Source: Myxococcaceae bacterium
GTDB lineage: Bacteria > Myxococcota > Myxococcia > Myxococcales > Myxococcaceae
NCBI GenBank assembly: GCA_020247085.1
Contig: JADCJJ010000187.1
Span: 1-36,860 of the forward strand
Direction: 5' to 3'
DNA length: 36,860 nucleotides
Shown: positions 24,874 to 36,630 of the stretch, piece by piece
Layout of the letters: each line of letters opens with the position of its first letter
How positions within the stretch are numbered: position 1 is the first letter of the stretch
Translations under genes and position numbers: made by a program
Notes under the pieces: generated by a model
Told to the model about the DNA's origin: nothing
What the model saw: only the letters and a program-made list of their open reading frames with translations
Databases searched by the model: none

Positions 24874-27072
24874 GTGGTGCTCCGTCGCTCCTGTCTGCTG
24901 TTGTTGCTCATCGGCGCCCCGGCCGCGGCCGACGTGATGAAGGACTTTCCGCCGCCCTCGCCTCGCCCGCGGGCGACGGTGACGCGGGCCGACGGGGCGC
25001 TCCGGCTCGACGGCCGCCTCGACGAGCCGGCGTGGGCCTCGGCGCTGCCGCTGTCGGCCTTCCGCCAGGTCGACCCGGACCAACTCGAGCCCGCGCGGCA
25101 CGCGACGACGGTGCGGGTGCTGGCGACCGATGACGGGCTGTGGGTGGGCGCGCGGTGCGACGACGAGGCGGGCTCCCGCGGCATTCAGCAGACCGACCTG
25201 CGCCGCGACTTCAACCTCTTCCGTGGCTTCGACTGGTTTGGCGTGGTGCTCGACCCGCTCGGCGACGGCCGCAACGCCTTCGGCTTCTTCGTCACGCCCT
25301 GGGGCAGCCAGCACGACGTGCAGGTCATCGACGACGAAATCGTCGAGACGCAGTGGGACACCGTCTGGCGCGTCGCCGTGACGCGCGACGAGGCCGGCTT
25401 CACCGTCGAGCTCGAGCTGCCGTGGAAGAGCCTGCGCACCGAGCCCGACCGCCTCGTGTGGGGCTTCAACGCCGTGCGGGCCGTGCGACGGACGATGGAG
25501 CGCTCCGCCTGGAGCCCCTACCCGCGCACCTTCAGCCCCTTCCGCATGCCGTATGCCGGAGAGCTTGCCTTCACCGAGGCCCCCACCACGCGCACGCGCC
25601 TCAACCTGCAGGTCCGCCCCTACGCCATCGTGCGGGCCGATGGCGACGGCGTGTCGGCGCCCACGCTGCGCCCCAACGCCGGCGGCGAGGTGACGTGGGC
25701 GCCCACGCCGAACACCGTCGTCGACCTCACCGGCAACACCGACTTCGCCGAGGTGGACGTCGACCGGCGCGTGGTCAACCTCTCGCGCTTCAACGTGCTC
25801 TTCCCGGAGCGGCGGCAGTTCTTCCTCGAAAACGCCGGCCTCTTCACCATGGGCCAGGGCCTGGTGCAGCCCTTCTTCAGCCGGGCCATCGGGCTGTCGA
25901 ACGGCCAGCCCCAGCCGCTGTCGGGCGGGGCGCGCCTGGTGTACCGCTCGGCCGAGCGCAGCGCCGGCGGCATGGTGGTGCACACGCTGCCGACGGACGC
26001 GCAGCGCTCGAGCGTCTTCGGCGTCGCCAGGTACTCGCACCACCTGCTCGGAGAGTCTCGCGCCGGCGGCATGGTGGTGCTGCGCCACGACTTCGAGGCG
26101 CCGGGGCTCGCGAGCGCGACGAACGTCGTGCCCGTCGTCGACGCCCTGGTGCGGAAGGGGCCGCTGTCGCTGACGGCGATGCTGAGCGGCAGCGTCGACC
26201 AGGTGCACGACGGCACGCCCTCGCGGCTGGGGCTGGCCGGCGCCGTCGAGGGCAGCCTGCAGGGAAACTGGGGCGACCTGACGCTGCGGGTGGCCGGGTT
26301 GACGCCGGGCTACCGGGCGCGCTCTGGCTTCGTCTCGCGCACCGAGGCGCTGCAAGCGTCGGCGAACTGGTACCTCGACTACCGGCCAGCCTGGCTGCCG
26401 AAGTGGGTGCGCACGCTGCAGCAGTTCCTCGACGCGCAGGTGCTGTGGAGCACGAAGGACGGCTCGTTTCAGGAGGCCAACGCGTACTTCGAGGCCTTCT
26501 GGGTGACGCTCGCCGGCGGGGACCGCGGCTGGGTCTATGGCCAGCGCACCTGGCAGTTCCTCGACCGCGAGTTCGCGCCCGTGCCCGGCGTCTCGTTTCC
26601 GCAGGGCAGCTACGTCTTCGACCGCGTCGGCGTCGCGGCGTACAGCGAGCAGAGCCGCCTCTTCTCGGTCGGTGGCAACGTCGGCGTCGGGCGCTACTAC
26701 CTGGCGGACTTCGTGCGCGCCCAGGGCCAGGTGGGCTTCTCGCCGGTGCCGCACGTCGGGCTGTTCCTCAACTACGAGCTGAACCGCTTCGAGGGTGAGG
26801 GCGTGCAGTGGGCCTCTCGCGTGGCGGTGACGCACCTCGTGCAGCTCGAGGCTCGCCTGGCGCTGACGCCGCGGCTCCAGCTCATCGGCAGCTACCAGCG
26901 CGACACCGCGGGCAACGTCGGGCTGCTCAACGCCCGGCTCGCCTGGGAGTTTCTCCCGCTGTCCTTCGTCTACGTCGTCTTCACCGACACCCGCGGCGCC
27001 TTCCAGGCCGGTCCGGGCCAGGTGCCGGAGCAGCGCCTCGTCGTCAAGGCGACGTACACCTGGCGGCCTTGA
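24874..27072 (+). CDS. CBM9-like/DUF5916 outer-membrane beta-barrel protein
   Basis: A 732-residue exported protein if started at GTG 24874 (or 24877), which places the signal peptide SCLLLLLIGAPAAAD at the N terminus. Residues about 30-220 resemble the carbohydrate-binding family 9/DOMON fold (LRLDGRLDEPAWASALPLSA, TVRVLATDDGLWVGARCDDE, TVELELPWKSL). The rest fits DUF5916: a hallmark FPERRQFFLENAGLF segment, then repeated amphipathic strands of a large barrel ending LVVKATYTWRP. Such proteins are frequent in myxobacteria and Bacteroidetes and are thought to sit in the outer membrane; substrate and role are unknown. GGAGGCGG at 24851-24858 could serve as a distant ribosome site. It converges on the cytochrome series, with a 100-base gap. 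Confidence 0.9.
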   Translation: MVLRRSCLLLLLIGAPAAADVMKDFPPPSPRPRATVTRADGALRLDGRLDEPAWASALPLSAFRQVDPDQLEPARHATTVRVLATDDGLWVGARCDDEAGSRGIQQTDLRRDFNLFRGFDWFGVVLDPLGDGRNAFGFFVTPWGSQHDVQVIDDEIVETQWDTVWRVAVTRDEAGFTVELELPWKSLRTEPDRLVWGFNAVRAVRRTMERSAWSPYPRTFSPFRMPYAGELAFTEAPTTRTRLNLQVRPYAIVRADGDGVSAPTLRPNAGGEVTWAPTPNTVVDLTGNTDFAEVDVDRRVVNLSRFNVLFPERRQFFLENAGLFTMGQGLVQPFFSRAIGLSNGQPQPLSGGARLVYRSAERSAGGMVVHTLPTDAQRSSVFGVARYSHHLLGESRAGGMVVLRHDFEAPGLASATNVVPVVDALVRKGPLSLTAMLSGSVDQVHDGTPSRLGLAGAVEGSLQGNWGDLTLRVAGLTPGYRARSGFVSRTEALQASANWYLDYRPAWLPKWVRTLQQFLDAQVLWSTKDGSFQEANAYFEAFWVTLAGGDRGWVYGQRTWQFLDREFAPVPGVSFPQGSYVFDRVGVAAYSEQSRLFSVGGNVGVGRYYLADFVRAQGQVGFSPVPHVGLFLNYELNRFEGEGVQWASRVAVTHLVQLEARLALTPRLQLIGSYQRDTAGNVGLLNARLAWEFLPLSFVYVVFTDTRGAFQAGPGQVPEQRLVVKATYTWRP

Positions 27073-27172: not shown

Positions 27173-28765
27173 TCAGGGAAGCCGTGGGGCGTCTTTCGCG
27201 CGCAGGCGCTGCTGCGTCCCGGGTGAGGCGTCGGTGAACAGGTGGCAGCCCACGCACTGCGCCGGCGGCGTCGGGTGGCGCTTCGGGTCGAGGCGCTGGT
27301 GGCAGGCGCGGCAGGTGGTGGGCGTCGCGCCCGGCTCCGGGGTGTGCGGCGCGTGACACGCCTCGCAGCGCTGGTGCCCCGCCTCGCGGTGCAGCGCCGG
27401 CAGCGCCGCGGGCGCGTGGCACGCCGTGCACGCCTTCACCACGGCGCCCGAGTGGCTCTCGTGGCAGCTCCCACAGGCCGGGTGCCCCGGCTGAGGCGGG
27501 GCGCGGTCGGCGTGGCAGTCGAGGCAGGCCCGCGGCGGCGCCCCCGGAGCGCCGTGCGGCAGCGAGGCGTGGCAGCCGGCACAGGCGAGATGGCCCTGCT
27601 GCCGCGCGCCGGGCTTCACCGTCACCTGCGCCACCTCGTCGAAGCGGGCCTGGTGGCAGCCGCGGCACTCGGCGTCGTCGCGGGGCCGCCCCTCGTGCGG
27701 GGCGTGGCAGTCGTCGCACGTCATGCGGGCGCCGTGCACCACCGCGGCGGTGAAGGGGGCCGCGTCGTGGCAGCTGACGCAGGGCTTCGCGAGCTGGTCG
27801 CCGGCCTCGTGCGGCGCGTGACAGCCGGTGCACCGCGGCCCCTCGGCCGCCGGGGGGTGGGTGACGGCCTCGTCGCGGTGGCAGCCCTCGGTGCAGCCGA
27901 CGGGCGCGGCGGCCGGCGCGTGCGGGCGGTGGCAGTCGGTGCAGGCGTCGTGCACCCACCCGGCGACGACGGGCGTGACCGGATGACAGGCGGCGCAGGG
28001 CTTCACCGCGCCCCGCTCGAAGCGGTGCGCCTCGTGGCACGCGCCACAGCCGGCGTGGGCCTTCGGAGAGAGGGCCTGGGGTGAGACGCGCGCGGTGGCC
28101 GGCAGGGTGGGCTTCGCGTGGCACGACAGGCACCGGCCGCTGGCCGCCGCCGCCGGGGTGTGGTGCGGGTGGCACGCCATGCACGTCTCGGCCAGCGTCG
28201 GCCCCTTCGCGCCGTGCCGCAGGGTGACGTCGTGGCAGGTGGCGCAGTCGGCGGCCCGGGTGAAGGGCGCCTCGTGCGGCCGGTGGCACGCCTCGCAGTC
28301 CGCGCGGTGCACGGTGATGGCGGCGTGCGCGGCCTGCGGCTGCTGGTGGCACGCCATGCACGTCCACCGCTCGAAGCGGGCGGGCAGCGCCTTCGCCACG
28401 AAGGGGTGGCAGGTGAGGCAGCCCGGCGTCGAGGCGCCCGCGTCGAAGGGGTGGTGCTGGCGCTGCTGCGGCTGGTGGCAGCCGGCGCACACCGCCTCGG
28501 TCGGCGCCGCGAAGCCCGCGTCGGTGAGGGCGTGGCAGTCGCGGCAGCGGACCTGGGCGCTGCCGGAGTCGACGAGGCCGCCGTCGCCGCGCACGAGGCC
28601 GGTGGCGAGGTGGCGCTGGTGGCCCGGCGCCGGCCGCGCGAGGTGGTAGCTGCCGGGCACCATCTCGAGGGGGGGCGGCTCGGCCGTGGGCCGCGGGCGC
28701 GCCTCGCAGGCCCACAGCCCGAGGGCCACGACGACGGCGAGGGCCACTCGGGGCGCGGGCGTCAC
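27173..28765 (-). CDS. 23-heme c-type cytochrome lipoprotein
   Basis: A 530-residue protein with 22 CXXCH motifs and one CX3CH (CTEGCH), about one heme per 23 residues. The GTG start at 28765 overlaps the stop of the upstream gene (GTGA) and gives a lipoprotein signal, VALAVVVALGLWAC, with lipidated Cys20. The motifs follow one another as CXXCH-x-x-H pairs (for example CEACHRPHEAPF and CDDCHAPHEGRP), typical of doubled-CXXCH cytochromes in which extra His residues provide the distal ligand. Heme attachment implies export through Sec and cytochrome c maturation. A protein this dense would be essentially a wire of stacked hemes, tethered to the periplasmic or outer face of the outer membrane. 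It is the last gene of the minus-strand series. Confidence 0.93.
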   Translation of the reverse strand: MTPAPRVALAVVVALGLWACEARPRPTAEPPPLEMVPGSYHLARPAPGHQRHLATGLVRGDGGLVDSGSAQVRCRDCHALTDAGFAAPTEAVCAGCHQPQQRQHHPFDAGASTPGCLTCHPFVAKALPARFERWTCMACHQQPQAAHAAITVHRADCEACHRPHEAPFTRAADCATCHDVTLRHGAKGPTLAETCMACHPHHTPAAAASGRCLSCHAKPTLPATARVSPQALSPKAHAGCGACHEAHRFERGAVKPCAACHPVTPVVAGWVHDACTDCHRPHAPAAAPVGCTEGCHRDEAVTHPPAAEGPRCTGCHAPHEAGDQLAKPCVSCHDAAPFTAAVVHGARMTCDDCHAPHEGRPRDDAECRGCHQARFDEVAQVTVKPGARQQGHLACAGCHASLPHGAPGAPPRACLDCHADRAPPQPGHPACGSCHESHSGAVVKACTACHAPAALPALHREAGHQRCEACHAPHTPEPGATPTTCRACHQRLDPKRHPTPPAQCVGCHLFTDASPGTQQRLRAKDAPRLP

Positions 28766-28986
28766 GGGCGGCGCGAGGCGACGTCGGCGGCGATGGAGAG
28801 CCCGAACAGCAGACACGCGACGACGCCGAGGCCCTGCGCGACGGACATGGCGGCCACGACGGGCAGCGGCGTGGCGAAGACGACGCCCAGCGCCATCAGC
28901 GTCAGCGCGCAGAGGCCCAGCACGCACGCCGCGCGCAGCGCCTTCGAGGCGGGCCACCGCGCCAGCAGCCGCACGAGGGCCCTCAT
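28762..28986 (-). CDS. Small two-helix membrane protein
   Basis: A 74-residue protein with a basic N terminus (MRALVRLLARWPASKALR) and two predicted transmembrane helices, about residues 20-38 (ACVLGLCALTLMALGVVFA) and 46-67 (AMSVAQGLGVVACLLFGLSI). Its ATG overlaps the stop of the membrane cytochrome gene (ATGA, 28983-28986) and its stop overlaps the start of the 23-heme gene (GTGA, 28762-28765). It is thus embedded in a tightly coupled operon. It has no heme motif. It may be an inner-membrane partner of the four-heme cytochrome; no family was recognised. Confidence 0.8.
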   Translation of the reverse strand: MRALVRLLARWPASKALRAACVLGLCALTLMALGVVFATPLPVVAAMSVAQGLGVVACLLFGLSIAADVASRRP

Positions 28987-29624
28987 CGCCGCCTCCGCCC
29001 GGCCAGCTCCTCGGCCGTCTTGCTGAAGGGGTGCGCCACGCCGTGACAGCCGGCCGACGCGCACGAGACGCGGTTCTGCTCGAGCTCGTCGGTGAGGGCG
29101 ACGTGCTCCTTCACGTTCGAGAAGGACGCCAGCGTGCCCGAGTGGCACTGCCGGCAGTTGGCGTTGGGGTACGGCTTCGCGGTGCGCACCTCGGCGTGGA
29201 AGCGCTCGAGCGACCAGCCCGAGTACCCGCCGAGGTAGTAGTTCCACACGTGCGCCATGCCCGTCAGCTTCGTCAGCGGGTACCCGAAGAGGCCGTAGTC
29301 GGCGTGGCAGGTGTAGCAGGCCGTCGGGCCCGTGAAGGGGCTGCGGGCGTGCCGCGCCGCCAGGCCCTGGCTCGTCGGGTCTTCGAGGTCGCGCAGGTGC
29401 GTCGTCATCACGTGGCACGAGCCGCAGAAGTCCCGCTCGGTGGTGCGGTGCAGGCCGAAGGCCGTGCTGGACACCGCCGTGATGAAGGGAAGCACCGCCA
29501 GCCCCAGCAGCAGCCGCAGCCGCACGGTGGCCGTCAGCGCCGGCCGCGCCACGAGGTGGTGGAGCAGGATGAGGGCCGCCGCCGCCGCGCTGACGAGGGT
29601 GAGGGCTCCGAAGGGCGTCGTCAC
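28983..29624 (-). CDS. NapC/NirT-like membrane-anchored multiheme cytochrome c
   Basis: A 213-residue protein from GTG 29624. Two N-terminal hydrophobic helices (LVSAAAAALILLHHLVA and LRLLLGLAVLPFITAVS) are followed by heme sites CGSCHVM at 67-73, CYTCH, CRQCH and CASAGCH (a CX4CH). The CXXCH-x-M at the first heme is typical of NapC/NirT/NrfH quinol dehydrogenases, which usually have one membrane helix; this one has two. Proteins of this kind take electrons from menaquinol and pass them to periplasmic cytochromes, as CymA does in Shewanella. In this cluster it is the natural entry point from the inner membrane. It is coupled to the 74-residue membrane protein by a 4-nt overlap. Confidence 0.88.
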   Translation of the reverse strand: MTTPFGALTLVSAAAAALILLHHLVARPALTATVRLRLLLGLAVLPFITAVSSTAFGLHRTTERDFCGSCHVMTTHLRDLEDPTSQGLAARHARSPFTGPTACYTCHADYGLFGYPLTKLTGMAHVWNYYLGGYSGWSLERFHAEVRTAKPYPNANCRQCHSGTLASFSNVKEHVALTDELEQNRVSCASAGCHGVAHPFSKTAEELAGRRRR

Positions 29625-29804
29625 GGCTGGGGGGCTCCGTCTCGGCGGGCCAGGGTCGCCGCGCGGGCTCGGCGGCGTCGCGGCGCAGATGGGGCACCGT
29701 GCCCTGCCGGGGTGCGGGCGTCACCGGCGGGCCCGGGGGCGCCTCGGCGACGGCTCAGGCCTCTGACTCCCGGTGCGCGCTGCACTCGCCGTCCCGGAGC
29801 GCTG

Positions 29805-32000
29805 TCACGGCGCCAGCGCGTGCACCGTGTCGACGCACGCCGACTTCCCGGCCGCGTGGCACACCGCGCACGACTCGAGGCCGCCCATCGTGGTGTTGAG
29901 AATCGTGTGGGCCTGCGCCGCCACCGACGTGTGGCAGCCGGTGCACGCCGCGCTGGTGGGCGGCTCGAACACCGGCGTCGCCGCCACCGCGCCGGGCAGG
30001 CAGGCGAGGCCGCCGTCGGCCGGTACGCTCGGGCCGCCGTCGGCCAGCGACAGGGCGCAGCTGCGCAGCTCGCTGCGAGACGGCAGCACGGTGGCCGGGA
30101 GCGGCAGGGTGTACGCCGTGGCCGTGTGGCACTTCTGGCAGTCGTTGAGGGGCGCCGGGTACCGCGCCGCCGCGTGCGTCGCGTGGATGAGGTCCTTGAA
30201 GTTGCCCGCGCCCGCCGTGACGACGCCGCCGTCGATGGGCACCACCAGGCCGCGGCTGCGCACCAGGTTGGAGTTGTGACACGAGACGCAGTTCTCGACG
30301 CTCTTGCGGCTGCCGCCGTGCTCCTGCAGGTCCTGGTGGCACGCCTCGCACTGGCGCTGGGTGACGTCCTTTCGCCGGCTCACCGGGGCGGCGTCGGTGA
30401 CGGCGAAGGCGCGCACCGGGTCGTCGGCGCACCAGCGCATGCCCGCGTCCGTCGTGGCGCACAGCTCGATGCCCACCTGGAAGCTCCCCGTGTCTCCCGC
30501 CAGCAGCTCCGTCGCCGCGCGGTAGGTGAAGACGCCGGCGTCGACGCGCTCGAGGCAGGCGCCGCCGTCGGTGACGACGGCGCAGTCCGGGGCGTTCTCG
30601 GCCGTCTCCGAGACGAAGCGGGCCACCTCGACGGTGGGGCCGGCGAAGGTGAAGCGCAGGCGGGACAGCCGCTGCGCGAGGAGGTCGCGCGGCTGGCCGT
30701 TCACCTGGGTGAGGAACGTCACCCGCGGGCGGGTGCCGGGCGGCGTGGCCGCCATGGGGAAGATGGTGCCCATGACGTTCAGCCGGTTCGGGTCGCGCGA
30801 CGGGGCGCGGTGCTTGAGGGTCGTTGGCGAGATGGAGTTGTCGGCGTGGCAGACGATGCACTCGGTGTCGGCGCGCGGCCCGCCCGGGTGCACGCGGTAC
30901 CCGGCCGGCGCCGTGCTGGCGGCGAACCAGATGCGGTCGTGACAGCCCGAGCAGTTCTCCCGGGTGGGGTTCGTCTTCCACCGGTCGCTCGCCGTGTGGC
31001 AGGCCTCGCACTCGTTGAGGTTCCCCGGGTAGGCGACGGTGCTGTAGTCGTGCGCCACGTTGCCGAAGCCGACGAAGCGGTACGGTACCCCGCCGTCGAC
31101 GCTCTGCAGCCGGGGCCCTGCGTGCAGGTTGTGCACCATCGCCTTGAAGTCGAACGAGGTGCCGGTGTCCGGGTCGATGTCGGCGGTGTTCGTGTGGCAC
31201 ATGATGCACAGCGGCACCTCGCGCCGGGCCCCGCCGTGCGCCTCGAGCCGCGTGTGGCAGGCGTTGCAGGCCTGGTCGGTGACGAGGGCCCGCGTCGCCG
31301 TCACCGGCTGGCCGTCGGGGCGGAAGTGGAACACCGCGTTGTCGACCGCGCGCACGCCCTGTGAGGTGCGCGTGGCGTAGAGCCCGACCGAGTGCGTCTT
31401 GCCGGCGTTCGCGCCCACGTCGACGACGGCGCCGAAGCGGTAGCGGTACAGGCCGGCCCCGGCCGGTGACAGCTCGGTCCACGTGCCGTTGGTGTCGGCG
31501 GCGTTCTGCTGGAAGGTGCCGCCGTCGAAGAGCACGGCGCGGCGGGTGTAGCTGACGTACTGGAGCGGCAGGCCGTCGCTCGCGCGCTGCTCGAGCAGGC
31601 CGAGCACCAGCGAGACGCTGACGGCGCCCTCGGTGAGGGAGCCCGTTCGGTCGAGCGGCCGTCCCCCCTCGTCGGTGAGCCGCAGGTCGACGGTCGCGCC
31701 GCCGTCGGCGACCCCCGCGTCGAGCACCGTGACGACGAGCCCCGTGCCGGTGAAGCGGAAGTCGCGCCCGTTGGTGCCGGCGTCTCCGGCCGGGCCCTGG
31801 GGCCCCTGGGGGCCCGCCGGGCCATTCATGCCAGCGGTGCCTGGAGCGCCGTTCATGCCGTCGCTCCCGGAGGGCCCTGGCGCGCCGACGGGGCCCCGCT
31901 CGCCGGCAGGCCCCTGGGCGCCGTTCATTCCAGCGGGGCCCGTGCAGGCCGTCGCCGCCGCGATGGCGCCGGCGGCCGTGAGGATTCGCAGACAGCTCAT
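29805..32000 (-). CDS. OmcA/MtrC-type decaheme cytochrome lipoprotein with collagen-like stalk
   Basis: A 731-residue protein with ten CXXCH sites (CNACH, CIMCH, CEACH, CSGCH, CIVCH, CEACH, CVSCH, CQKCH, CTGCH, CAVCH), the number typical of OmcA/MtrC cytochromes. ATG 32000 is preceded by GAGGGGAG with good spacing and gives a lipoprotein signal ending ATAC (Cys19). From residue 21 to 80 there are 20 uninterrupted Gly-X-Y triplets (for example GPAGMNGAQGPAGERGPV), a collagen-like rod between the lipid anchor and the first beta domain. Five hemes precede and five follow a central beta domain, as in the split pentaheme design of the family. It should sit at the cell surface as a terminal reductase for minerals or other extracellular acceptors. 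Confidence 0.93.
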   Translation of the reverse strand: MSCLRILTAAGAIAAATACTGPAGMNGAQGPAGERGPVGAPGPSGSDGMNGAPGTAGMNGPAGPQGPQGPAGDAGTNGRDFRFTGTGLVVTVLDAGVADGGATVDLRLTDEGGRPLDRTGSLTEGAVSVSLVLGLLEQRASDGLPLQYVSYTRRAVLFDGGTFQQNAADTNGTWTELSPAGAGLYRYRFGAVVDVGANAGKTHSVGLYATRTSQGVRAVDNAVFHFRPDGQPVTATRALVTDQACNACHTRLEAHGGARREVPLCIMCHTNTADIDPDTGTSFDFKAMVHNLHAGPRLQSVDGGVPYRFVGFGNVAHDYSTVAYPGNLNECEACHTASDRWKTNPTRENCSGCHDRIWFAASTAPAGYRVHPGGPRADTECIVCHADNSISPTTLKHRAPSRDPNRLNVMGTIFPMAATPPGTRPRVTFLTQVNGQPRDLLAQRLSRLRFTFAGPTVEVARFVSETAENAPDCAVVTDGGACLERVDAGVFTYRAATELLAGDTGSFQVGIELCATTDAGMRWCADDPVRAFAVTDAAPVSRRKDVTQRQCEACHQDLQEHGGSRKSVENCVSCHNSNLVRSRGLVVPIDGGVVTAGAGNFKDLIHATHAAARYPAPLNDCQKCHTATAYTLPLPATVLPSRSELRSCALSLADGGPSVPADGGLACLPGAVAATPVFEPPTSAACTGCHTSVAAQAHTILNTTMGGLESCAVCHAAGKSACVDTVHALAP

Positions 32001-32034
32001 GGTGATGGACTCCCCTCGATGCGGGTCGATCACT

Positions 32035-32050
32035 TGCGTGCCCCGTACCA
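32035..32050 (-). promoter_or_regulatory. Possible sigma-54 promoter for the decaheme gene
   Basis: Read on the minus strand, TGGTACGGGGCACGCA has the -24 box TGGTACG and -12 box ACGCA with the required GG-N10-GC spacing. Transcription would start near 32024, about 24 bases before the ATG and upstream of the ribosome site GAGGGGAG, which is a good geometry. The TT of the -12 box is missing, and GG-N10-GC occurs by chance in very G+C-rich DNA, so the call is tentative. Confidence 0.35.
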
Positions 32051-32211
32051 GCCGCGTCAGAGGGGAGGGCCCCGGTGGGGGCGCAGGGCTTGCGCGTCGC
32101 CGCGGGTGGGCCGCAGGCTTCGCGTCGTCGGTCGGCGCGTACGGGGTGGGCGCCCGCGGGAGGCCTCCCACGATTCTTGAATGGGCGTGGGGCGACGTGC
32201 CCCGCCGCGCC

Positions 32212-33594
32212 ATGCCCCCGTCCCTGCTGCGTCACGCTTCGCGGTGGGCAGCGGTCGCGGCGTGCGGCGTCGTGAGCGGCCGGGCGGTGGCGCAGCAGGC
32301 GAGTTGGGTCGACGCCCGCGCGACGATGACGGCGCAGGTGTTTCAGCAGGCGCTGCTGCCGGGCCCCGGGGGCGTGGGGGCGCCGCTCGAGCTGGCGCTG
32401 CCGGTGATGACGACGGCCTTTCTGCGCTTCGGGGCCGTCGACCTGCCGGGTGCGCCTGACGCGCTGGGCGGAGAGCTCTCGGCGTGGGGCCGGCTCGGCC
32501 CGCGCGACGGGTGGCTCGGAGACGGCGACGTCACCACGGCCTCCGCGCAGCTGCGCACGGGGCGGTGGCGGCTCACCGTCGGGCGGCAGGTGACCCTGCC
32601 GGGGACGAGCCGCTTCGTGCGCTTCGACGGCGTGACGGCGGGCGTCCGCGTGGGGGCGGTGGACGTCGACGCGTACGCGGGCTGGGTGGCGCTGCCACGG
32701 TGGAGCCTGCCGCGCGGGGCCTGGGTGCTGGGCTTCCTTGGTGAGGCGCTCGAGGACCCGCGGCTGCGAGAGGCGCAGAACCGCGCGGGGCAGCTCACCG
32801 CGGGTGCGCGCGTCGGCCTGCGGGCGGGGCCCGTGCGCGCGCTCGTGGGGTTTCACGAGCAGCGTGACGCGGTGGGGCTGGCGGTGCGGGCGGTGAGCGC
32901 CGACGTGCAGGGGCAGCCGCTGGCCTGGCTGGCGCTCGGCGGCCATGGCTCGCTCGACCTGACGGGCCTGGCGGTGGGTGGAGGGAAGCCGGTGGGCGTG
33001 TCCGAGGCGCGCCTCTTCGCCGACGTCGTCGGGCTGGCCTTCGGCACGGCCTCGCTCGACTACTCGTTTCAGAACACGGCGCTGCTGCTGCCGCAGACGT
33101 CGGTGCTGGCGGCCTTCGGCGGCGGCGCGTGGCATGAGGTCGGCGCCGAGCTGACGGCGCAGCTCCCGGCCCGGGTGCGGGTGACGGGCCGGGGCGCGGG
33201 GCAGGTGTACGAGCGCGGGGTGCCGGGCGGGCGCGGCCTCGTGCGGGCGCGCTGGTCGCCGGGGCTCGAGGGGCGCTGGCTGGTGCAGGGCGAGCTGCAG
33301 CGCACGCAGACGGCCGAGAACGGCTTCCACCAGGTGCGCGTCGGCGCGCGGGGCCGGCTGCTGCGGCAGGTGTCGGCGGCGGTCGACGCGTCGCTGTTCC
33401 TCTACGACCGGCCCGTGCTGGGGCTGCGCGAGTCGATGACGGGGGTGGTGAGCGCCGAGTGGGCCTTCGGGCGGCAGCTGCGGCTCCTGGTGTCGACGAC
33501 GGTGCTGCGAACGCCCTACGCCGCGTTCGAGGTGCAGGGGCTGGCGCGGCTCGTCTTCGAGTGGGACCCGGCGACGGCGGGAGGCCTGCCGTGA
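32212..33594 (+). CDS. Predicted outer-membrane beta-barrel (putative porin of the cytochrome conduit)
   Basis: A 460-residue exported protein with signal peptide RHASRWAAVAACGVVSGRAVA, starting at ATG 32212. The mature part has no Cys-based motifs or hemes and consists of alternating amphipathic strands, such as TAGVRVGAVDVDAYAGWVAL and RWLVQGELQRTQTA, ending AFEVQGLARLVFEW, as in outer-membrane barrels. It lies between divergent multiheme cytochrome genes, where MtrB/PioB or ExtB-like porins are found in known conduits. It is much shorter than MtrB (about 700 residues), and I could not match it to that family, so the porin role rests on fold and context. It is 55 bases upstream of the 12-heme gene and probably co-transcribed. 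Confidence 0.8.
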   Translation: MPPSLLRHASRWAAVAACGVVSGRAVAQQASWVDARATMTAQVFQQALLPGPGGVGAPLELALPVMTTAFLRFGAVDLPGAPDALGGELSAWGRLGPRDGWLGDGDVTTASAQLRTGRWRLTVGRQVTLPGTSRFVRFDGVTAGVRVGAVDVDAYAGWVALPRWSLPRGAWVLGFLGEALEDPRLREAQNRAGQLTAGARVGLRAGPVRALVGFHEQRDAVGLAVRAVSADVQGQPLAWLALGGHGSLDLTGLAVGGGKPVGVSEARLFADVVGLAFGTASLDYSFQNTALLLPQTSVLAAFGGGAWHEVGAELTAQLPARVRVTGRGAGQVYERGVPGGRGLVRARWSPGLEGRWLVQGELQRTQTAENGFHQVRVGARGRLLRQVSAAVDASLFLYDRPVLGLRESMTGVVSAEWAFGRQLRLLVSTTVLRTPYAAFEVQGLARLVFEWDPATAGGLP

Positions 33595-33649
33595 GGGCGC
33601 GTCGCGCCGCGTCTGGGCGGTTCGATTCCGCGCGCGGGCGGGGGCCGGC

Positions 33650-34720
33650 ATGAGGCGTGTCGGCGCCCTGGTGGTGGGGGTGGTGCTCGTGTCGGCGTGC
33701 ACGAAGGGGCTGTTGACGCACTTCCCGCATCGCCAGCACCTCGCCGGGCTCGCCTGTGGAGCCCCCGGCCAGCCCGCGTGCCTCTCGTGCGGGAGCTGCC
33801 ACCGGGGCGAGACGGTGCGCGACGGCGGCGTCGAGGTGGCGACGGGGGCGTGGCACCCGCCGCGCGCGGAGTCGTGCACGGGCTGTCACGATGAGGCCGC
33901 GCGGATGTTGGCACGCTCGGTGCGGCCGGCGCTCGCGACGCTGCCAGCAGGGAAAGCCGTCACCTTCGAGCACGACCCGCACCTCGCGATGCCCGCCATC
34001 AAGGGGCAGTGCGTGACGTGCCACGCGGGCGCCGTCGGCGACACGGGTGGGCCGCCGCTCTTCCCGCCGATGGAGACGTGCCTGGGGTGTCACGAGCATC
34101 GGCGCCAGTTCGACCGCGGCAGCTGCACCGGCTGCCACCGGCCGGGCGACCTGCGGGGCCTGAAGCCCGTGTCGTTCTTGTCGCATGACGCGGCGTGGAC
34201 GCGGCGGCACGGGCTGGTGGCGCGGAGCGAGCCTGCGCGCTGTGAGAGCTGCCACGCCCAGACGAGCTGCGACGGCTGCCACGACGCGACGCGGCCGATG
34301 AGCGCGGCGGCGAGGAACCCGGAGCGGCTCGAGGCCGAGCTGGTGCACCGCTTCGACTTCCTCACCCAGCACGCCGTCGAGGCCGAGTCGCAGCCGGGGA
34401 CCTGCCTGACCTGCCACGCGCAGCCCGACTGCGACGCGTGCCATGCCGCGCGCGGCGTTTCACCGATGAACCGGGGCGCGGTGAGCCCGCACCCGGGGGG
34501 CTGGGCGAGCGGCGCGGGCGCGGCGAGGAACGCGCACGGTCCCGCGGCGCGGAGGAATCTGCTGTCGTGTGCGGCCTGTCACGACCAGGGCGCGGCCAGT
34601 ACGTGCGTCCGCTGCCACCGCGTCGGTGGGCTGGGCGGAAGTCCGCACCCGGCCGGGTGGCAGGGGGCTGCGCCGGCGGGGGCGCCAGAGTGCCAGGCAT
34701 GCCACGGAGGGGCGCCGTGA
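33650..34720 (+). CDS. 12-heme c-type cytochrome lipoprotein
   Basis: A 356-residue protein with twelve CXXCH motifs (from CGSCH after residue 45 to CQACH at the C terminus). The N terminus, RRVGALVVGVVLVSAC, is a lipoprotein signal with lipidated Cys17. Several isolated His residues in stretches such as TFEHDPHLAMPA and LTHFPHRQHLAG are likely distal heme ligands. A dodecaheme outer-membrane lipoprotein next to a barrel resembles the OmcB or ExtA/ExtD plan of Geobacter conduits, though sequence identity to those was not tested. It probably sits inside or beside the barrel, passing electrons across the outer membrane. Its stop codon overlaps a GTG (34717) in GTGA. Confidence 0.93.
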   Translation: MRRVGALVVGVVLVSACTKGLLTHFPHRQHLAGLACGAPGQPACLSCGSCHRGETVRDGGVEVATGAWHPPRAESCTGCHDEAARMLARSVRPALATLPAGKAVTFEHDPHLAMPAIKGQCVTCHAGAVGDTGGPPLFPPMETCLGCHEHRRQFDRGSCTGCHRPGDLRGLKPVSFLSHDAAWTRRHGLVARSEPARCESCHAQTSCDGCHDATRPMSAAARNPERLEAELVHRFDFLTQHAVEAESQPGTCLTCHAQPDCDACHAARGVSPMNRGAVSPHPGGWASGAGAARNAHGPAARRNLLSCAACHDQGAASTCVRCHRVGGLGGSPHPAGWQGAAPAGAPECQACHGGAP

Positions 34721-34807
34721 CGTCGTCGGGCGGCTCGCGGGAAGAGGTCTCCGGTGAGGTCGGGCGTCGGGTGTCAGGCGTCGAGACTCCGGTCGCGGTG
34801 GAGGTGT

Positions 34808-34978
34808 GCGCGGGGCGTGGTGCAGCGTCCGATGAGGTGGGAGGCGGGAAGGTGGCGCGCCGTGGCGCGGGGCGTGGTGCAGCGTCCGATGAGGTGGGAG
34901 GCGAGAAGGTGGCGCGCCGTGGCGCGGGGCGTGGTGCAGCGTCCGATGAGGTGGGAGGCGGGAAGGTGGCGCACGGTG
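34808..34978 (+). repeat. Three 57-bp tandem repeats before the 15-heme gene
   Basis: Copies at 34808-34864, 34865-34921 and 34922-34978; copy 2 differs from copy 1 at one base and copy 3 at two. The unit begins GCGCGGGGCGTGGTGCAGCG and contains GAGGTGGGAGG. Since 57 is divisible by 3, several frames stay open; in the cytochrome frame the unit reads AGRGAASDEVGGGKVARRG. The array fills the middle of the 308-base stretch 34721-35028 between the 12-heme and 15-heme coding parts, in which no separate gene was seen. Confidence 0.95.
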
Positions 34979-35028
34979 GCGAGGCGGCGTCGGGGTGGCG
35001 CGCGGTCGGGGGCATCGCAGGCGCTGTC

Positions 35029-36630
35029 GTGCAGTCGCCGGCGCGCGCGGCCTCGGCTCGGGCGCGTGGACTCCATACACGCGAGCGCGTCGGCGTTCGG
35101 GCGTGTGGCTCGCGCTGGGCGTGGCCGCTGTTCGCCCTCGCGGTGCTGCCGGCGTGCTTCGTCCCGCGCGAGCCGCCGCGCCCGCCACCGGAGTGCGCGC
35201 GGTGCCACGGAGACGCCACGCGCGAGGGCACGGCGCTGCAGCAGGCCGCGCCACCGTCGGACACCTTCGGCAACGTCGACGTCAGCTTCCCGAGCGTCGG
35301 CGCGCACGCGCTGCACCTGACGGCGAGCCCGACGCACGGCGCGGTCGAGTGTCATCAGTGCCACCCCGTCCCCGCCGTGACCGGGAGCTCCGGGCATGGC
35401 GATGGCGTCACCCAGGTGGTGCTGCCAGCGCGCGACGGCGGGCCGGCCCCGCGCTGGGACGTCTCGGAGCGCACCTGCAGCAACTCGTCGTGCCACGGGC
35501 CTGTCTCCGGGAGCTGGACGCGCCCCCGCCCGTCCGAGGCGGCCTGCGGGAGCTGCCATGCCACCCCCCCTGCCCTCCCGCACCCGCAGTACGGGGACTG
35601 CGGCGCGTGCCATGGCGAGGTGGTGCGCGAGGGCGCCTTCGTCGCTCCCGGGAAGCACGTGGATGGAACGGTGCAGGTGGTGGCGGCGACGTGCGGGAGT
35701 TGCCACGGCAGCGACGACTCGGGGGCTCCACCGCGCGCGCTCGACGGCGGTACGAACGTCTCGCAGTCGGGGGTCGGTGCTCACGCGGCGCACCGCGGTG
35801 GCGGCGCCGGTGGCCGCCCGGTGGCGTGTGAGACGTGCCATGCGGCGCCCACCGCGGCGGCGCACCCGAACGGCAGCCCCGTCGAGGTGAAGGGCGCGGT
35901 CGGGTGGAGCCCTTCGAGCGGTCGCTGCATGACGAGCTGCCACGGGGTGGCCTCGCCCGCCTGGACGAGCGTGGACGCGGGGTTGACCTGCACGAGCTGC
36001 CACGGTGCGCCGCCTCCGGTGCCACACCCGGCCGTGTCGCAGTGTGTGCTGTGCCATGGGGCTCCAGCGAAGGAGCGTCACGTCGACGGCGTGGTGCAGG
36101 TGGAGGTGCCCGTCGTGTGCAACGGGTGCCACGGGAGCGCCGCGAACGCCGCGCCACCGGGTGACCTCTCGGGGTCGTCAGAGACCGAGCGCGTGGGCGT
36201 CGGCGCGCACCAGGCGCACCTCGCTCCGCGGGGCCCGGTTCGGGCGGTGCGCTGCGCTGAGTGTCACGAGGTGCCCATGACGGTGAACGCCGGCCGCCAC
36301 CTCGACGGTGTCACGCAGGTGCGCTTCCTGGGCGTGGCGCGCGCGAACGGGGCCGCGCCCACGTGGAGTGGAATGACGTGCGCGAGCTCCGCCTGCCATG
36401 ACACCTCGGTGTGGCGCAGCAGCCCCGGCGGTGGCTCGAGCCCGGCGCCGGCCTGGACGCGGGTCGACGGGAGCCAACGCACCTGCACCTCGTGTCACGG
36501 CGCGCCGCCGCCACCGCCGCACGTGCAGCGTGACGATTGCGCCTCGTGCCACCAGAACGCCGCGCCCGACGGCGGCTTCGTCCGGGCCGAGTTGCACGTC
36601 GATGGACGCGTCGACTTCTTCGTCCCGTGA
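35029..36630 (+). CDS. 15-heme c-type cytochrome lipoprotein with CXXCH, CX3CH and CX4CH sites
   Basis: A protein of 533 residues from GTG 35029, with lipoprotein signal WAWPLFALAVLPAC. Fifteen heme sites are seen: twelve CXXCH, one CX3CH (CMTSCH) and two CX4CH (CSNSSCH, CASSACH). Each CX4CH is followed by CXXCH, the pattern of the Geobacter-type CxxxxCH...CXXCH domain. Three repeated blocks are recognisable around HVDGTVQV, HVDGVVQV and HLDGVTQV. The start is uncertain: the frame is open back to GTG 34717, which overlaps the previous stop, but that would put 140 repeat-rich residues before the signal peptide. No ATG exists between. Likely an outer-membrane or surface cytochrome of the same conduit. 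Confidence 0.85.
   Translation: MQSPARAASARARGLHTRERVGVRACGSRWAWPLFALAVLPACFVPREPPRPPPECARCHGDATREGTALQQAAPPSDTFGNVDVSFPSVGAHALHLTASPTHGAVECHQCHPVPAVTGSSGHGDGVTQVVLPARDGGPAPRWDVSERTCSNSSCHGPVSGSWTRPRPSEAACGSCHATPPALPHPQYGDCGACHGEVVREGAFVAPGKHVDGTVQVVAATCGSCHGSDDSGAPPRALDGGTNVSQSGVGAHAAHRGGGAGGRPVACETCHAAPTAAAHPNGSPVEVKGAVGWSPSSGRCMTSCHGVASPAWTSVDAGLTCTSCHGAPPPVPHPAVSQCVLCHGAPAKERHVDGVVQVEVPVVCNGCHGSAANAAPPGDLSGSSETERVGVGAHQAHLAPRGPVRAVRCAECHEVPMTVNAGRHLDGVTQVRFLGVARANGAAPTWSGMTCASSACHDTSVWRSSPGGGSSPAPAWTRVDGSQRTCTSCHGAPPPPPHVQRDDCASCHQNAAPDGGFVRAELHVDGRVDFFVP

Follow-up and report, generated by a model that had tools for sequence, protein, structure and literature searches.

Two divergent operons in a genome of uncultured Myxococcaceae encode five multiheme c-type cytochromes, an outer-membrane beta-barrel and a small membrane protein, and together these probably form a single trans-envelope conduit that carries electrons from quinol to an extracellular acceptor. 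The island lies at positions 27173-36630 of the window, by which we mean the whole stretch of DNA analysed, 36,860 nucleotides long (contig C98 of a 7.36 Mb genome in 641 contigs). The nearest named relative is the metagenome-assembled genome Prado148 ('Myxococcaceae bacterium isolate Prado148').

Among the Myxococcota, Anaeromyxobacter is already known to respire with extracellular acceptors, and the members of the Myxococcaceae are known chiefly as aerobic soil predators. What is new is the occurrence, in uncultured Myxococcaceae, of a barrel-cytochrome pair similar to Pcc Group IV together with a 23-heme lipoprotein, a small membrane protein (B) and an OmcA/MtrC exit. The open-access literature searched, which omits most subscription journals, yielded no paper on such an arrangement or on Prado148. 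A conserved conduit in uncultured genera would put mineral or partner respiration within the Myxococcaceae and would link Mtr-type surface cytochromes with a Pcc-type barrel. It would also make a whole wire open to test at a single locus, with a candidate protein for the step across the periplasm, which is poorly understood.

Gene layout and heme content

The seven genes, here called A to G, are arranged as D-C-B-A on the minus strand and E-F-G on the plus strand. A (27173-28765, GTG start) encodes a 23-heme cytochrome, B (28762-28986) a 74-residue membrane protein of no known family that is hydrophobic from about residue 15 to 72, C (28983-29624) a tetraheme cytochrome and D (29805-32000) a decaheme cytochrome. 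On the other strand, E (32212-33594) encodes the barrel, F (33650-34720) a 12-heme and G (35095-36630) a 15-heme cytochrome. The open reading frames at 27173-28957 and 34438-36630 exceed the likely genes, for which 28765 and about 35095 are the probable starts. C and B overlap by four bases (ATGA), as do B and A (GTGA, where the stop of B overlaps the start of A), which suggests coupled translation.

Counted by script, A has 23 heme motifs (22 CX2CH and one CX3CH), C has four (three CX2CH and, as the last, one CX4CH), D has ten, F has 12 and G has 15 (12 CX2CH, one CX3CH and two CX4CH). With the motif defined as CX2-4CH the island holds 64, a total that requires the CX3CH and CX4CH motifs to be included. 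The first-pass annotation had arrived at the same figures for the five cytochromes (10, 4, 23, 12 and 15, sum 64), and the barrel and the small membrane protein that it placed among them are both confirmed. Every CX2CH motif of the window is found in the five cytochrome frames. A three-motif pattern, strict enough that NapC- and MtrC-like spacing escapes it, has 17 matches in the 7.36 Mb genome, all within the island, and a backward control pattern has none. The clustering of heme motifs in the island is not due to chance.

All heme motifs of A, C, D, F and G, including CX3CH and CX4CH, are invariant across 8-13 Myxococcaceae genomes (11 for A, 11 for C and 13 for G), where the lowest pairwise identities of the compared cytochromes are 0.28-0.55. 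The atypical motifs are very probably real heme sites. Outside the motifs, A has 24 invariant histidines for its 23 hemes, G has 15 for 15, F has 12 for 12 and D has 11 for 10 (with the non-orthologous copy in locus L054 left out), and no CXXCK motif occurs in the island cytochromes. Such a pattern is what bis-histidine hemes of electron transfer should show, and not what open catalytic hemes should.

Two tandem repeats lie close to G. One, of 57 bases (3.2 copies at 95%), is found between the F and G genes at 34808-34990. The other, of 73 bases (at least 2.8 copies at 96%), begins just past G and runs off the contig end (36655-36860), and it probably broke the assembly there.

The barrel and its 12-heme partner

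The AlphaFold2 model of E (24 sequences, pLDDT 77.5) has about 22 beta-strands, and Foldseek relates it to outer-membrane barrels of a general sort (porins, ushers, AlgE). The TM scores are low, none of the matches points to a specific relative, and MtrB is not among the 50 matches listed. Model and structural likeness thus bear out the earlier prediction of an outer-membrane barrel. In family models E finds nothing above cut-off, and comparison with solved structures by sequence, single or profile, gave nothing useful. Assignment to the MtrB/PioB family was rejected, as PF11854 has no match in E or in the whole genome. Among 195 Myxococcota genomes searched, this family is present in one; its sole barrel there (G156:C803:4141-6402) comes from an assembly that is fragmented and about 6% contaminated.

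A profile of the barrel matches 41 of 4214 open reading frames, one per locus and each beside a relative of F. In these 41 loci, which come from about ten families, the barrel always stands first and on the same strand as its partner. Over 33 loci the pairwise identities of E follow those of F with a correlation of 0.94, much of which is explained by shared ancestry. In a tree of F, a single group with full support unites the thirteen copies from Myxococcaceae islands and separates them from an Anaeromyxobacteraceae-like group. Profile search also finds an adjacent barrel/12-heme pair in genomes of 5,013,479, 5,029,329 and 5,277,990 bp, which we take to be Anaeromyxobacter dehalogenans 2CP-C and 2CP-1 and strain Fw109-5. 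In the first of these, the E-values are about 1e-103 for the barrel profile and 1e-105 for the cytochrome profile, with 22% and 36% identity to the window proteins. The barrel had been described as unrecognised; these profile matches instead make E a distant member of the porin family that adjoins a 12-heme cytochrome. A relation to porins had been set beforehand as a test of the electron-conduit idea, and it is found here for the pair by profile homology. The E-F pair fits Pcc Group IV of Anaeromyxobacter, and the barrel is thus of a known kind.

F, for which we propose a place inside the barrel, was also considered as a ten-heme cytochrome of the MtrA/DmsE type and rejected, with 12 motifs and 16.8 bits against TIGR03508 (cut-off 192.2). 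It matches an MtrC domain model weakly and, like A, matches generic multiheme cytochrome models. An AlphaFold2 model of F without hemes was poor (pLDDT 55) and was left unused.

Diverged two-gene pairs of a barrel and a 13-heme cytochrome occur in a 12,489,432-base genome (L088, 4499-7153) and in a 6.8 Mb genome (L087, 6124-8859), and at a third locus (L086, 6641-7822) the cytochrome alone was recognised. All three belong to large-genome Myxococcaceae, so porin-cytochrome pairs may exist in cultured, aerobic myxobacteria.

Proposed inner-membrane entry and the 23-heme protein

C scores 46.5 bits against PF03264 (NapC/NirT, cut-off 24.1), in agreement with the NapC-like entry first proposed. 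Its hydrophobic N-terminus and four hemes are those of a NapC/NirT quinol dehydrogenase, which is its predicted role. The first heme motif reads CGSCHVM, and a methionine two residues past a heme motif is typical of NrfH/CymA proteins. NrfH itself was rejected, the score against TIGR03153 (39.4 bits) being below the equivalog cut-off of 134.2. B finds nothing above cut-off in family models; it is kept next to C in 10 relatives, and also in L084 and L113, two distant operons.

The first-pass annotation had put the 23-heme protein A in one of the usual places of such layouts. It is F, however, that constantly accompanies the barrel, and A therefore does not hold the position of MtrA; A is more likely a periplasmic bridge. 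A catalytic role for A was considered and is less likely, because the number of distal histidines matches that of the hemes. Most relatives show lipoprotein-like signals in A, F and G, and F and A may accordingly be anchored in the outer membrane. A and G could lie on either face of it.

Proposed surface cytochromes

D scores 327 bits against TIGR03507 (OmcA/MtrC), where the NCBI curated cut-off is 209.3, and it also matches PF22113 and the solved structures of MtrF, MtrC and UndA. With this score, ten motifs and a lipoprotein character it has the features of an OmcA/MtrC decaheme, so that the surface exit of this type suggested earlier is supported. The lipobox is clear in most relatives and weaker in the window copy, which is a probable lipoprotein. 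After the probable lipid anchor, the N-terminus of D contains a collagen-like G-X-Y repeat (31770-31940, minus strand). This stretch is found with variable length in all island relatives checked, and in L084 as well, and it might serve as a spacer to raise the decaheme above the surface. D is absent at the island in two relatives (L050 and L056) and replaced in a third (L054), which means that the exit is not fixed; in L053 the contig end falls inside D. G scores 106 bits against TIGR01904 (CxxxxCH/CxxCH domains, cut-off 27), and we propose it as a second outer-membrane or surface cytochrome.

Conservation of the island

In a search with the barrel, strong relatives at 47-86% identity came from 12 other Myxococcaceae genomes, among which are five of the six remaining genomes of the same genus. 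Around these barrels, genes with 23, 4, 10, 12 and 15 heme motifs recur; in one genome (G112) the set is divided over two contigs (L055 and L118). The flanking genes, a DUF5916 protein and another, are not common to the islands of relatives. The DUF5916 protein adjoins the island at 25000-27072 (plus strand) and has CBM9-like carbohydrate-binding and DUF5916 domains; a link between this protein and the island was rejected, as the two are not conserved together.

In a different Myxococcota lineage (family f17), two genomes (loci L084 and L113) have all seven families along a single strand, ordered D-G-C-B-E-F-A. In L113 the E-values in that order are 1e-185, 1e-30, 1e-67, 1e-10, 1e-38, 1e-84 and 1e-62, and L084 is similar; as multiheme similarity can stem from CXXCH alone, weight is placed on the barrel, C, D and the gene order. 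A matches the 25-heme proteins of these two loci well, though not decisively. That the seven-gene set survived rearrangement indicates a real unit, and nothing else speaks as strongly for one device. A lack of joint conservation in relatives had been named as evidence against a conduit, and the island is conserved in relatives and reordered in L084 and L113. The same had been said of missing genes for cytochrome c maturation, and these are present in the genome.

Relation to known conduits

Pcc Group IV of Anaeromyxobacter is a two-gene cluster of a porin and a 12-heme cytochrome, and its cytochrome Adeh_3392 rose under Mn(IV) reduction (PMC4245776). The likeness to E-F is in the barrel gene followed by an adjacent 12-heme cytochrome gene. 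The difference is that there are only two genes there and no surface cytochrome, whereas the island adds a NapC-type entry, a small membrane protein and 23-heme, 15-heme and MtrC-like proteins. The extABCD and extEFG clusters of Geobacter, as described, also combine a dodecaheme partner with a barrel (of 18-21 predicted strands) and lipoprotein cytochromes, and provide a precedent for the pairing of barrel and dodecaheme; in Geobacter conduits replacement most often affects the surface lipoprotein (PMC6148476), and here too the proposed surface protein, D, is variable. No NapC-type entry is described there, and heme numbers and order differ from the island. Shewanella mtrCAB shares a decaheme surface protein of the OmcA/MtrC family and a barrel with a multiheme partner. 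As the first-pass annotation held, the layout is nevertheless unlike mtrCAB, since E has no MtrB/PioB match and F, with 12 hemes, is far under the MtrA/DmsE-family cut-off. In the cymA-mtr clusters of Rhodoferax and Sideroxydans, a NapC/NirT-type quinol dehydrogenase is encoded with the outer-membrane conduit, a precedent for entry genes beside conduit genes; the barrel there is of the Mtr type, and in the passages compared no 23-heme protein or B is reported (PMC6295460).

Proposed path and alternatives

In the path that we infer, C together with B would take electrons from quinol at the inner membrane, and A would carry them across the periplasm. F, held in the 22-strand barrel E, would pass them through the outer membrane, and G and D would hand them on to an acceptor outside the cell, for instance to Fe(III) or Mn(IV) oxide, to humics or to another cell as partner. 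It is likely that electrons flow outwards in this way, to an acceptor that is solid or extracellular. Since two haem-copper oxidase (COX1) genes are also present in the genome, extracellular respiration would be optional, and the organism probably respires oxygen as well. A more specific version, which we put forward tentatively as slightly short of an even chance, is a self-contained quinone-to-surface wire in which a Pcc-type barrel serves an OmcA/MtrC-type terminus and is fed by a periplasm-spanning 23-heme lipoprotein and by a NapC-type entry whose small membrane subunit is new, the whole being a mobile or anciently shared Myxococcota module.

The wire could also run inwards. Fe(II), reduced minerals or partner cells would then deliver electrons at D/G and E-F, and these would cross on A and reduce quinone or feed the reduction of oxygen. 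The two COX1 genes would suit this, and for the Mto pathway of Sideroxydans it has been proposed that CymA acts as a quinone reductase (PMC6295460). D, however, is of the OmcA/MtrC type, which is associated with the reduction of metals, and the closest pair of a characterised kind comes from genomes matching Anaeromyxobacter, a reducer of Fe(III); we regard inward flow as unlikely. It is similarly unlikely that the island holds two independent devices around a common promoter region, namely a porin-cytochrome conduit (E-F-G) and a quinol-driven periplasmic system (C-B-A, possibly with D). Such a division would agree with the divergent operons, with the loss or replacement of D in relatives that keep the remainder, and with the many genomes in which the E-F pair stands alone, but the interleaving of all seven genes on one strand in L084 and L113 fits one device. 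A third alternative, in which the hemes chiefly store electrons or act as a reductase of some soluble compound, is very improbable. Sixty-four hemes do seem to exceed the needs of a minimal conduit, yet distal histidines are about as many as hemes, CXXCK is absent, and the cluster has a barrel and no reductase gene.

Putative regulatory element

Scans for sigma-70 promoters, terminators and Rfam families found nothing. A putative sigma-54-type (-24/-12) element, TGGTACGGGGCACGCA, lies at 32035-32050 on the minus strand, about 35 bases before D and thus ahead of D-C-B-A. It has the form TGGTAC-N7-GCA and is the one match in the window, where 0.32 would be expected. An element at the matching place is found in four of five same-genus relatives (L045-L048). 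Control of D-C-B-A by this element is suggested tentatively, as a lead only. A similar sigma-54-like element is found close to D in L113.
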